From NCBI GenBank assembly GCA_019636345.1, contig JAHBXQ010000008.1, positions 62,001 through 126,000 of the forward strand: 64,000 bases of DNA. The letters are read 5' to 3'. Positions 27,414 to 39,247 of the stretch are shown here, one piece after another. The DNA comes from Pirellulales bacterium (GTDB taxonomy: Bacteria; Planctomycetota; Planctomycetia; Pirellulales; Lacipirellulaceae). Both the position numbers and the translations under genes were made by a program. Position 1 is the stretch's first letter; every line of letters begins with the position of its first letter. The notes beneath the pieces were generated by a model that saw nothing but the letters and a program-made list of their open reading frames with translations, did not search any database and had not been told where the DNA came from.

Positions 27414-27524
27414 TAAGGCGATCCATACGAACGAGTCGCCTGGAGCCGCTGGGCTCGGCCGTTCGGAGCCAAACCTTGCAGGACCAGATCGCCTGGCAAC
27501 CGCACTTCAGAGAGGGAAATGACC

Positions 27525-27803
27525 ATGTTCAAGAAGATGTTCGCTGCGGCCGTCGTCGGTGTTTCCGCGTTGTTCGTCTCCGCCCCCGCGGCTGAGGCGG
27601 GCGTCATCGTCGGGGTCGCCCCGGTGCGTCGGGTCGCGGCTCGGGCCGTTCTGCCCCCGTACCCGGTCGCTCGCCGCGTGGTGGCGACCCCCGTCGTCGG
27701 ACCTGTCTACCGCGGTCCGGTGGTCTACGGGGGCGTCTACGGGGCCCCGGTGTACAGTCCCGTGATCGCCGTCCCGGGCGTCTCGGTCGGCTTCGGCTGG
27801 TGA
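27525..27803 (+). CDS. Small exported protein with a VAPVR/LPPYP motif (copy 1)
   Basis: This exported protein has 92 residues. The ATG at 27525 is preferred over one at 27519 because AGAGAGGG is about 8 bases before it. The signal peptide has a Phe-Lys-Lys start, a hydrophobic AAAVVGVSALFVSA and cleavage near AEA. The mature part holds VAPVRRVAARAVLPPYPVAR, then Tyr/Val/Gly-rich repeats (VYGGVYGAPVY) and ends GVSVGFGW. The same motif and end recur in the gene at 28112, so these two are paralogs. Expression is probably from the sigma-54-type promoter at 27396. Confidence 0.8.
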   Translation: MFKKMFAAAVVGVSALFVSAPAAEAGVIVGVAPVRRVAARAVLPPYPVARRVVATPVVGPVYRGPVVYGGVYGAPVYSPVIAVPGVSVGFGW

Positions 27804-28111: not shown

Positions 28112-28351
28112 ATGGGAAGAAAACTGCTCATCCTCGCGGCGCTGGGCGTCGGCTTGGTCGTCGCCGGCGCCTCCTCGGCTGACGCGGGGATTTACTATCG
28201 TCGCGTCGCCCCGGTGCGACACGTCGCCGCCCGAGCCGTCCTGCCCCCGTACCCGATTGCGCGGCGCGCGGTCGTCGGACCGGTCTACCGGCCGTATTAC
28301 GCGCCGTACTACTACGGCGGGCCCGGCGTCTCGGTGCGCGTCGGTTGGTAA
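28112..28351 (+). CDS. Small exported protein with a VAPVR/LPPYP motif (copy 2)
   Basis: This is a 79-residue exported protein with a signal peptide (Gly-Arg-Lys start, hydrophobic LLILAALGVGLVVAG, cleavage near ADA). The mature part has VAPVRHVAARAVLPPYPIAR followed by Tyr-rich repeats and ends GVSVRVGW, paralleling copy 1 at 27525. The start follows GGGAGAG. No sigma-54-type promoter was found upstream of this copy. It has its own strong terminator. Function is unknown; the family looks like a surface or matrix component. Confidence 0.8.
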   Translation: MGRKLLILAALGVGLVVAGASSADAGIYYRRVAPVRHVAARAVLPPYPIARRAVVGPVYRPYYAPYYYGGPGVSVRVGW

Positions 28352-37369: not shown

Positions 37370-37924
37370 ATGCTGTATCTTATGACCGCCGACCCGTTAC
37401 GCACAGACGCCGCGCTTGCCGGGGGAGCGGTGCGCACGGTCGATGCGGAGCGGTGGTGGGCGTTGCCGCTCATGTTGGCGCTGCTGGTCGGCGTCGTGGC
37501 GGCTTTCGGATTCTGGACCACCGGGGGACAATTCCCCAACACGAGACGCCCGGACGCGCAGATCGTCCCCTCGCCGTCGCCGCAGGGCGACTCGGTGAGC
37601 CTGGCGATCGACTTCGGCAACGGCGCGCGGCGCGAGTTCGCCGCCCTCCCCTGGCGCCCGCAGATGACGGTCGCCGATCTCATGGAGGCGGCGCGCGAAT
37701 TCCGCCCGGGGATCGCCTACGAGCAGCAAGGAACCGGCGCCGGGGCGTTCCTCACCGCACTTGAGGGGGTGGCCGGCGAAGGCGCGGGGGGCCGCTGGTG
37801 GCAATACCTCGTCAACGACCGCCCCGCCAACGACAGCTTCGGCGTCCACGAGCTCAACCCCGGCGACCGCGTCTTGTGGAGATTCGCCGCGGGGGACGAG
37901 CAGGACGAACTGGCGACGGAGTGA
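37370..37924 (+). CDS. DUF4430 (transcobalamin-like C-terminal) protein, 3' end altered
   Basis: This membrane-anchored protein of 184 residues has one anchor (LPLMLALLVGVVAAFGFW near residues 32-50) and an external C-terminal domain. The domain contains GRWWQYLVNDRPANDSFG and LNPGDRVLWRF, the hallmarks of DUF4430, which folds like the cobalamin-binding C-terminal domain of transcobalamin. Ligand is unknown. The end RVLWRFAAGDEQDELATE is followed by a toxin-antitoxin module, after which a second copy of the RVLW segment appears at 38598-38648 with a different C-terminus. The original 3' end therefore was probably displaced (see findings). A DUF6580 membrane protein follows. Confidence 0.82.
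   Translation: MLYLMTADPLRTDAALAGGAVRTVDAERWWALPLMLALLVGVVAAFGFWTTGGQFPNTRRPDAQIVPSPSPQGDSVSLAIDFGNGARREFAALPWRPQMTVADLMEAAREFRPGIAYEQQGTGAGAFLTALEGVAGEGAGGRWWQYLVNDRPANDSFGVHELNPGDRVLWRFAAGDEQDELATE
37865..37892 (+). repeat. Left 28-base direct repeat flanking the toxin-antitoxin module
   Basis: This 28-base segment, encoding DRVLWRFAA in the DUF4430 gene, recurs at 38598-38625 with a single mismatch (G to C). The two copies bracket the ParE/ParD pair. They probably mark the boundaries of an insertion. Confidence 0.85.
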
Positions 37925-37962
37925 TCCTGTCGCCAGCCCGAAATGATCGAGCAGGCAAAGCG

Positions 37963-38265
37963 CTAGCGATCGTCGAACAAGGCTGGGTAGTCGCGGGCTG
38001 CGTCGAGAATCCGCATCACTTCGATTCCCTCCGAAGTTGGCCGATAGACGACGATCCACCGCTGTGCGGGAAAACAGCGAATGTTCAGACCCAGATCGGG
38101 GCGCGCCTCGCCGATCAGCGGATGAGCGGCGTACTCGTTGCACTTTGCGACGAGGTTCTCGACGACCCGCTCGGCCGCGAGCGGTCGAGCTTGCTCCACG
38201 GCGATGAACAGAGCGATCTCCTGCAGATCCTGCTCTGCGGCGGGGGTACGAACGGCATAGGCCAC
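37963..38265 (-). CDS. ParE/RelE-type toxin of a toxin-antitoxin module
   Basis: This 100-residue protein has the RelE/ParE fold pattern. There is an N-terminal strand (AYAVRTPAAEQDLQEIALFI), two helices with Ala/Arg-rich faces, and strands with IRCFPAQRWIVVYRP and IEVMRILDAARD near the C-terminus. ParE poisons gyrase; RelE cleaves mRNA; which one applies cannot be read here. The start is GTG. Its gene follows the antitoxin gene with only four bases between, so they form one operon. The pair is flanked by 28-base direct repeats. Confidence 0.88.
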   Translation of the reverse strand: MAYAVRTPAAEQDLQEIALFIAVEQARPLAAERVVENLVAKCNEYAAHPLIGEARPDLGLNIRCFPAQRWIVVYRPTSEGIEVMRILDAARDYPALFDDR

Positions 38266-38269
38266 GTCG

Positions 38270-38521
38270 TTAGCGCCCTTCAGCCGCCAGCCGGGTTCGG
38301 AGCGCCGCCTTCGTCGCCTCGACGTCGAACGGGGCGCTCTGACCAGCGGCGCTTTGCTCTTCGGCGACGCGAATTTTGTCCTTCAGATCCAAGAGTTGCC
38401 GCTGATGCTCGCGGAACTGCTCGACGGCCGCCTCAAGCGACGCCGGCCCTCGTCCGGCGGCAATCTGCGGACCGATGAAGTCGTGGAACAACTGGACTTC
38501 GCTGGGTGAATTTGCAGACAT
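38270..38521 (-). CDS. ParD-like antitoxin
   Basis: This 83-residue protein is the first gene of the toxin-antitoxin operon. It is helical and acidic-basic mixed, with SLEAAVEQFREHQRQLLDLK in the middle and TKAALRTRLAAEG at the end. A DNA-binding N-terminus is not clearly recognisable, but size, order and spacing match ParD-type antitoxins. It should neutralise the neighbouring toxin and repress the operon. The ATG at 38521 gives a normal length. The whole module lies inside a duplicated segment of the DUF4430 gene. Confidence 0.8.
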   Translation of the reverse strand: MSANSPSEVQLFHDFIGPQIAAGRGPASLEAAVEQFREHQRQLLDLKDKIRVAEEQSAAGQSAPFDVEATKAALRTRLAAEGR

Positions 38522-38597
38522 GCGCGGTGAACTCCTCGTCGAGCATTATACCTGAGGCGGGATGGCAGGCCAACGAATCCGGTTTCCTCCGCTCTCG

Positions 38598-38625
38598 GAC
38601 CGCGTCTTGTGGACATTCGCCGCGG
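38598..38625 (+). repeat. Right 28-base direct repeat flanking the toxin-antitoxin module
   Basis: This is the second copy of the 28-base segment at 37865-37892, 27 of 28 identical. In the same reading frame it encodes DRVLWTFAAEGYNSGP and then a stop at 38646-38648. It thus looks like the original end of the DUF4430 gene. Confidence 0.85.
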
Positions 38626-38698
38626 AGGGGTACAATTCGGGGCCCTGAAAATTCTTGCCCGCCTGCCGCGGCTAGCGGCCGAACTGGGAGCGTCTGCT

Positions 38699-39247
38699 GT
38701 GAATCGATCGGTCTTGCGCGACGTGTTGGTCTTCGCCCTGTTGGTGATCCTGGGGATCGCCGGTCGTTGGGCTCAGCCGACGTGGAACTTCACCCCGCTG
38801 GCCGCCACGGCCGCGTGTGCCGGATTCTACTTCCGGCAGTGGCTTCCCGCGCTGCTTGTGCCCGTCGCGACGCTGGTCGTTTCGGACTTGTGCTTGCGAT
38901 CGCACGACAGCTTGGCCGTCCTGGCGAGCGTCCACGTGATGATGCTGTTGCCGCTGGCCTTGGGGCGTTTGGCCCAACGGACGACCGGTTGGCGCCGCGC
39001 CGGGTGCTGGGTCGCCACGGGCGTGGTCCCCGCGACGGCGTTTTTCCTCGTCACGAACTTTGCCGTCTGGGCCTTTCAGAGCCACTATCCGACGACCCTC
39101 GCGGGGCTGGCCGAGTGCTATGTCGCGGGGATTCCGTTCTACCGGACGATGCTTGCGGGGGACGTGGTTTACGTCGGCGCCGTGGTCGCCGCGCTGGCGG
39201 CGGCTCGGTGGATCGAGACGCCGGCTCCGGCCGGGCAACTCGCTTGA
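38699..39247 (+). CDS. DUF6580-like membrane protein
   Basis: This 182-residue membrane protein has five or six helices: VLVFALLVILGIAGRW, LAATAACAGFYF, LLVPVATLVVSDL, VVPATAFFLVTNFAVWAF and VVYVGAVVAALAAA. WNFTPLAATAA and NFAVWAF.SHYP resemble the DUF6580 family, an uncharacterised group whose fold is similar to substrate-binding ECF-transporter subunits. The GTG start at 38699 is chosen because GGGAG lies about 9 bases upstream and the preceding part of the frame (from 38609) reads through the repeat. It sits after the DUF4430 gene and may have been its neighbour before the toxin-antitoxin insertion. Confidence 0.78.
   Translation: MNRSVLRDVLVFALLVILGIAGRWAQPTWNFTPLAATAACAGFYFRQWLPALLVPVATLVVSDLCLRSHDSLAVLASVHVMMLLPLALGRLAQRTTGWRRAGCWVATGVVPATAFFLVTNFAVWAFQSHYPTTLAGLAECYVAGIPFYRTMLAGDVVYVGAVVAALAAARWIETPAPAGQLA

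Follow-up and report, generated by a model that had tools for sequence, protein, structure and literature searches.

A small toxin-antitoxin operon apparently inserted with duplication of a gene end in a Pirellulales bacterium, and recurrence of the pattern in its family

Restriction-modification genes that insert with a long duplication of their target were reportedly described by Nobusato in 2000 and Furuta in 2010. Such long target duplication of variable length is already known for these genes, with duplications on the order of 100 bp, and the accessible portion of one account of it makes no such statement for toxin-antitoxin (TA) systems (PMC3874152). In Microcystis, according to the part of the report available, a ParE/ParD-like module behind MaOC1 is flanked by identical direct repeats of 152 bp, which start 14 bp after the stop codon and contain a 16-bp inverted repeat (PMC7935541). 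In this study, a ParE-type TA operon is analysed in a Pirellulales bacterium, in a 64,000-nucleotide stretch (contig JAHBXQ010000008.1, positions 62,001 to 126,000 of the forward strand) that is called the window below and whose first base is position 1. The operon appears to have been inserted at the 3' end of a DUF4430 gene, the gene end is duplicated on both sides of it, the pattern recurs in the bacterial family, and the inserted unit is smaller than 1 kb. The features of the occupied site are as follows (L and G numbers denote loci and genomes throughout).

37370 to 37924, plus strand: DUF4430 host gene, 184 aa, with the new C-terminal end GDEQDELATE (PF14478, E 1e-9)
37865 to 37892, plus strand: repeat copy 1, near the DUF4430 coding end, stopping 32 nt short of the present stop
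37893 to 38597: insert of 705 nt, the TA operon with about 70 nt on each side, absent in 28 of 29 relatives
37963 to 38265, minus strand: ParE-type toxin gene, 100 aa (PF05016, E 3.3e-16, 60.1 bits against a cut-off of 23)
38270 to 38521, minus strand: putative antitoxin gene, 83 aa, resembling ParD in its position and its C-terminal part
38545 to 38573, minus strand: promoter-like site of the TA operon, TTGGCC-N17-TATAAT (10 of 12 consensus matches, 0.1 expected)
38598 to 38625, plus strand: repeat copy 2, a relic of the DUF4430 gene end, 27/28 identical to copy 1 and readable in frame
38607 to 38636, plus strand: probable DUF6580 promoter, TTGTGG-N18-TACAAT, the same motif as at the DUF4430 end in relatives
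38699 to 39247, plus strand: DUF6580 gene, with a GTG start at 38699 proposed by comparison with L016 (a longer open reading frame, ORF, begins at 38609; PF20221, E 4.2e-36)

A preliminary description of this DNA had reported 28-base direct repeats with one mismatch around a TA pair, and both observations hold: the copies agree at 27 of 28 bases (29 of 31 when extended), and a ParE gene and a small antitoxin ORF lie between them on the minus strand. Its reading that the first copy runs into a new end also stands, as copy 1 in the frame of the DUF4430 gene reads DRVLWRFAAGDEQDELATE-stop. In the same frame, copy 2 reads DRVLWTFAAEGYNSGP-stop. The repeat occurs only twice in the window, where one other comparable nearby pair exists, at 27615 and 28205, between small paralogous genes; these neighbours (27519-27803 and about 28112-28351) appear by eye to encode secreted-type proteins.

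By its profile match the toxin gene is a member of the ParE family; its nearest solved sequence is PDB 6x0a (E 4.3e-12), and no NCBIfam or PADLOC match was found. The antitoxin had no match in Pfam, NCBIfam or PADLOC. Its profile matched the antidote chain of 6x0a weakly (E 0.021), ranked below two designed TIM barrels, which were taken as spurious despite their better scores. Relatives of the antitoxin adjoin ParE in all five loci of one set and in several loci of another, and five of the six named relatives are planctomycete records. The three longest other ORFs overlapping the insert had no Pfam match, and no listed inverted repeat connects the ends of the window insert.

The same junction was compared among relatives. 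DUF4430 is present in 41 of 59 genomes, from which 30 loci were taken, the window's and 29 from relatives. DUF6580 adjoins DUF4430 in all 29, and in 28 of them DUF4430 runs to its own stop and is followed by DUF6580, with the TA pair absent and no second gene-end copy seen at the junction. Across 36 genomes, the DUF4430 and DUF6580 matches lie more than 400 nt apart only in the window's genome (G000) and in G015; in G062 the gap holds a second promoter-like match that is not readable as a gene end. The exception among the 29 relatives is locus L016 of G015, which belongs to another genus: there the DUF4430 stop TGA is followed by an antitoxin gene, then by CTTGTGGCAGTTTGCGAAACCGGGGTAGAAT, a decayed second gene end, and then by DUF6580. 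The L016 antitoxin is 52% identical to the window's, and no ParE match was found at the locus. L016:1920-2420 is thus a toxin-less antitoxin gene at the same junction, and its decayed gene end retains an intact promoter-like motif.

To place the site in the family, flanking repeats were scored at 190 usable toxin loci from 43 genomes, comprising 125 ParE-type loci (130 of the PF05016 matches listed were taken) and 65 PIN-type loci (70 of the matches listed were taken). Each locus was given the score (+1/-2) of the highest-scoring direct repeat, without gaps, shared by the two 900-nt flanks of its toxin. L087 and L106 were left out for contig ends and self-overlap, L140, L141 and L164 for short flanks, and L233, L245, L253, L257 and L281 were also left out; a wider scan for inserts up to about 3 kb covered 193 loci, the 190 plus L140, L141 and L164. 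Scores of at least 24 were reached by 8/125 ParE-type loci (9/125 at a score of at least 20) and 8/65 PIN-type loci. Among these 16 of 190 loci, sorted by eye and not blind into gene-end and other kinds, 9 carry a duplicated end of a neighbouring gene (8 three-prime, 1 five-prime), in line with the earlier proposal that entry of the pair duplicated target sequence.

The ParE-type cases (6/125), all at 3' ends, are the window, L121, whose host has RNB and S1 domains (RNase R-like), L159 (GDSL lipase family), L123, L219 and L114. The PIN-type cases (3/65) are L241 (BPL_N family) and L308 (DUF4159) at 3' ends and L283 (TatD) at a 5' end. The hosts of L123 and L114 look PEP-CTERM-like by eye. At L283:1180-2043 (G012), the first 62 nt of the TatD gene are duplicated around the PIN-type toxin locus. 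The search suggested earlier for further gene-end duplications around TA pairs therefore succeeded in related genomes (9/190) but not in the window's own, where, with 6 of 7 loci examined, only the window's shows one. That genome has at least two ParE-type and at least five PIN-type matches, and its locus L277 has a 72-nt repeat of another kind.

The window repeat is more than chance would give, as such repeats are scarce in control sequence. In 400 kb from 20 of the family genomes, none of 800 random positions reached a score of 22 and three reached 20; an exhaustive scan of the same 400 kb found no direct-repeat pair scoring at least 24 at a spacing of 560-2060 nt, and two pairs scoring at least 22 when spacing up to 3300 nt was allowed. 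Acetyltransferase control loci gave 0/30 gene-end cases and no score above 15 (4 of the 30 were shorter than planned, and their flanks are approximate). Fisher's test for 9/190 against 0/830 controls gives 2e-7, and 7e-4 when the overlapping random positions are counted as 200. In Blast searches against the 1.4 Mb of collected loci, the window repeat was found only at DUF4430 ends (its own loci, L002/L047 and L013/L059), the repeats of L121 and L308 had matches at the corresponding gene end alone, and the remaining six gene-end repeats had none outside their own locus.

The eight 3' cases have the following anatomy (duplication length, identity, position of the copy 1 end counted from the final base of the host stop codon, insert length).

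Window: 28 nt, 27/28, -32, 705 nt
L121: 159 nt, 154/159, +5 (about 90 more with gaps), 814 nt
L123: 94 nt, 90/94, -9, 821 nt
L159: 61 nt, 50/61, 0, 767 nt
L219: 95 nt, 88/95, -2, 606 nt
L114: 33 nt, 30/33, +25, 781 nt
L241: 71 nt, 64/71, -1, 850 nt
L308: 75 nt, 74/75, -1, 765 nt

The duplications thus span 28-159 nt ungapped (about 250 nt with gaps at L121), and the inserts 606-850 nt, sizes that did not change when inserts up to about 3 kb were allowed. The unequal duplication lengths speak against a transposase with a fixed target duplication, in line with the earlier remark that the duplication is unlike a normal transposon target site. The toxin gene runs opposite to the host gene in the window, L123, L159, L114 and L308, and in the same direction in L121, L219 and L241.

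Empty sites were also found for two of these hosts. At the RNase R site of L121 (G064), 13 loci from 12 genus relatives were compared, 11 of the relatives being informative (L273 reaches a contig edge 2 bases past the RNase R match, and L274 and L275 are one place in G059). By tblastn (E 0.01), the TA pair was found in 0/11 informative relatives, and in 8 of the 11 (9 loci) the sequence downstream of copy 2 follows the RNase R end. Copy 2 of L121 retains the codon AAA of 5/5 aligned relatives and has a TAGAAT box as in L263 and L264; copy 1 has neither. For L308, the insert DNA and the PIN protein were unmatched in both genus relatives within the fetched flank, and one of the two shares sequence further downstream.

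Compared with the restriction-modification insertions, as far as these are covered by the accessible part of the account (PMC3874152), the loci described here are alike in carrying a stand-alone addictive gene pair with no linked mobile element and with a long direct duplication of variable length. The window and the RNase R site are also alike in having empty sites in relatives, and no transposase and no terminal inverted repeats were found for the window insert. The cargo differs, being a TA operon, and so does the position of the duplications, which lie at gene ends and in several cases end at the stop codon; the 28 nt of the window are short for that kind (28-159 nt ungapped here against the order of 100 bp in the portion available). 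Since the cargo is ParE with an antitoxin and not a restriction-modification system, the window's insertion works like that kind without being a member in the narrow sense. Judging from the available part of its report, the Microcystis MaOC1 module is likewise a TA pair that lies right behind a gene between direct repeats, but its repeats are not a copy of the gene end (PMC7935541). In E. coli AGR5151, the one occupied genome examined, a ccd pair at folA-apaH takes the place of the intergenic stretch, its junction lying about 9 nt past the folA stop. That case resembles ours in being a stand-alone pair at gene ends, with empty and occupied sites in one species and a join near a stop codon, and differs in that intergenic sequence is replaced, not duplicated. 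No repeat was listed flanking the ccd pair, indicating that gene-end duplication is not universal for TA pairs. Nor is it a general property of the window's antitoxin family, other members of which (L034-L037, L039, L040 and L041-L044) have only weak, chance-level flank repeats, with scores of 10-13 for L034-L036 and L041-L044. In the open literature searched, no description of gene-end duplication by TA units was found, which is no proof that none exists.

The second copy at the window is probably the promoter of DUF6580, as suggested by conservation at the DUF4430 end. In 31 of 32 genomes (window included), TTG encodes the leucine of the LW motif, against a background TTG share of 24.5% of 1191 leucine codons in matched parts of both genes, and the DUF4430 stop codon with the next three bases reads TAGAAT in 19 of 36 genomes. 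The full form TTGTGG-N18-TAnRAT, its LW being in frame, is present in 23 of 36 genomes, a count that includes copy 2 for the window and for G015; the rows in these counts are, however, related genomes and not independent. In this -35/-10 form, the -10 element includes the stop codon of the preceding DUF4430 gene. Besides the gene end, the repeat carries the -35 part and the spacer; copy 2 retains TTGTGG-N18-TACAAT, and copy 1 is without the -10 element. Copy 2 has probably been retained because it serves as the promoter of the next gene. Among the matching gene ends of L002-L030 (window 37865-37930), many show the TAGAAT box over the stop and the TTG leucine codon at a fixed distance.

The preliminary description had taken copy 2 for the original C-terminus and had expected empty sites to read through into YNSGP. 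That copy 2 is a gene-end relic with an in-frame stop, and that empty sites have a single gene end followed by DUF6580 (28/29), is borne out, but the read-through is not the rule and YNSGP need not be ancestral: 27 of 31 relatives with the LW motif stop exactly at the TAC position of copy 2. YNSGP may therefore have arisen after the duplication or go back to an earlier read-through, of which G061 (SYNEGPAEE) and G035 (GYTEPEALTEP) offer similar examples.

In a tree of DUF4430 and DUF6580, G000 is sister to G001 (100/100) and G015 to G027 (98/94), and both sisters are empty. Over 31 bases, copy 1 has 2 differences to copy 2 and 6 to the gene end of G001, and 16 further gene ends from 15 chosen loci show 4-14 differences. 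As copy 1 is nearer to copy 2 than to the empty sister G001, the duplication looks younger than the G000/G001 split. The single base that differs within the 28 nt lies in AGA of copy 1, which is the same in G001. These trees and comparisons fit two separate arrivals at one junction, in G000 and in G015. A single ancestral insertion common to both is disfavoured by the empty sister of each and by the close likeness of the window copies. The antitoxin tree groups G000 and G015 weakly (76/84, the mis-extracted rows L037 and L039 being left out), so that common ancestry with repeated loss may apply instead.

Most likely, with a probability of roughly 0.7, the TA operon, some 0.7 kb long, entered at the DUF4430 3' end in the manner of insertion with long target duplication, duplicating about 28-31 bases. 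The arrangement A-B-C, in which B is the DUF4430 gene end, would have become A-B-insert-B-C. With copy 1 the DUF4430 protein would stay complete, ending in a short new tail, and copy 2 would preserve the DUF6580 promoter, which appears to overlap the DUF4430 stop codon in the family; an insertion without duplication would have cost either the DUF4430 end or this promoter. Repair or recombination, rather than a transposase, presumably joined the incoming DNA, and several recombination routes could give the product. Addiction to the toxin would then favour retention of the insert. Target duplication, one-sided homologous integration and remnant att sites are candidate routes, each of which may apply, and plain target duplication explains the variable duplication length.

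Several observations weigh against this reading. In four of the eight cases the duplicated stretch ends no more than 2 nt from the host stop, which is too precise for random target duplication and suggests homology between coding ends, or att-like sites, and the copies carry different stop codons in L308, L241, L219 and L016. The pattern is confined to a minority of loci, as 181 of 190 toxin loci are not gene-end cases and 7 of the 16 strong-repeat loci are of other kinds or ambiguous. The weak cases are L114, whose 33 nt lie mostly beyond the stop, and the window itself, with 28 nt, and the host ORFs of L123, L219 and L114 have no Pfam family. The promoter role proposed for copy 2 is read from the motif, and a generic sigma-70 scan did not list the site at 38607..38636. 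Moreover, in the distant G059 just 4 of the 31 bases of the gene end depart from copy 1, which makes the dating rough.

The precise ends at stop codons would be better explained if DNA of another species carrying the pair right after an orthologous gene end had been imported by one-sided homology, through a single crossover of a circle or homology-facilitated illegitimate recombination. Copy 1 would then end with the donor's sequence and copy 2 would be the recipient's own, a special route to the same product that is possible, though clearly less probable than plain duplication. It accounts for homology that stops at the host stop codon in several cases, for stop codons that may differ between copies (TAG/TAA, TAG/TGA) and for many synonymous differences (synonymous to non-synonymous codons 5 to 2 in L219, 3 to 1 in L123 and 5 to 4 in L159). 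In L121 and in L308, copy 2 has the relatives' base at the one scorable site. The ccd pair at folA-apaH, joined about 9 nt after the stop, is in keeping with such import, and single-crossover events in E. coli produced duplications of a lacZ end that were 109-950 bp long, according to the part of the report available (PMC3240628). However, the one differing base of the window fits plain duplication with copy 2 changing later. The codon differences summed over the eight cases, 16 synonymous and 16 not, are non-decisive between routes and could equally come from a decaying copy 2 beside a constrained copy 1, and no donor genome was seen among the genomes examined, among which no dedicated donor search was made.

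Tyrosine-recombinase integration at gene 3' ends leaves direct repeats of the gene end together with a gene end supplied by the element. The same combination is present here and several repeats end at stop codons, as would be the case if the repeats were attL and attR of a larger integrative element from which all but the addictive pair had been deleted. This origin is unlikely: neither an integrase-sized nor an integrase-like ORF is present in the 705-nt insert, inserts remain at 606-850 nt, below 1 kb, in 8/8 three-prime cases though about 3 kb was allowed, L283 duplicates a gene 5' end, and the host genes with a Pfam family are mutually unrelated. A tandem duplication of the gene end by slippage, with the TA pair landing between the copies in a later step, would give the same product and is very improbable, because no tandem gene end was seen in the 28 empty relatives and the 400 kb control has no such nearby repeats, so that the coincidence in 9/190 loci would need a cause. 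An integron cassette with the repeat as its attC site is hardly credible. Although a ParE locus of the family (L092, G032) lies in an attC-like array, empty relatives have the window repeat as part of a coding sequence, the window contains just two copies of it and no attC-like inverted repeat is listed in it; the empty sites already contradict this origin.

Other repeat-flanked loci were set aside during sorting. L092:1-2723 is an integron-like, attC-like array with a ParE cassette and was rejected as a gene-end case, as was the ParE locus L193, which has a palindromic element instead; at L193:10-864 and L147 (G064), one palindromic element adjoins two ParE loci in one genome. The PIN loci L242 (palindromic by eye), L277 (72 nt, of dispersed type by eye), L294 and L315 (both ambiguous) and L302 (a 30-nt repeat inside a gene) were not counted, nor were L208, L147, L255 and L141, with lower scores or found only in the wider scan. 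For L242, L277 and L302, nothing else matched the repeats in the 1.4 Mb of collected loci, so that the term dispersed is unsupported for them. L255:927-3162 (G023) and L315:247-2295 (G034), PIN loci of sister genomes, carry related direct repeats of 124-196 nt with 1.7-2.0 kb between them. At L045 (G114), a 53-nt piece of parD, the antitoxin gene, at 1587-1639 recurs just behind parE at 2084-2136.

The insertion bears on how chromosomal TA pairs move without a carrier mobile element. As the repeats delimit the inserts, age, unit of movement and target choice are readable from sequence. A simple filter may be at work at such sites: if a promoter and a stop codon share sequence, both adjacent genes stay functional only when the insertion duplicates the shared stretch. 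A more speculative and rather doubtful proposal is that the TA operons of this family move as self-sufficient units, that a short piece of the adjoining gene end travels with them and directs their entry to stop codons, and that they leave a second copy of that end, which keeps the downstream promoter. If this were true, the related antitoxins at one DUF4430 junction in two genera (G000 and G015) would reflect re-entry at the same address and not chance. If the gene-end rule holds, such insertions would be searchable in any genome collection without knowledge of the toxin family.
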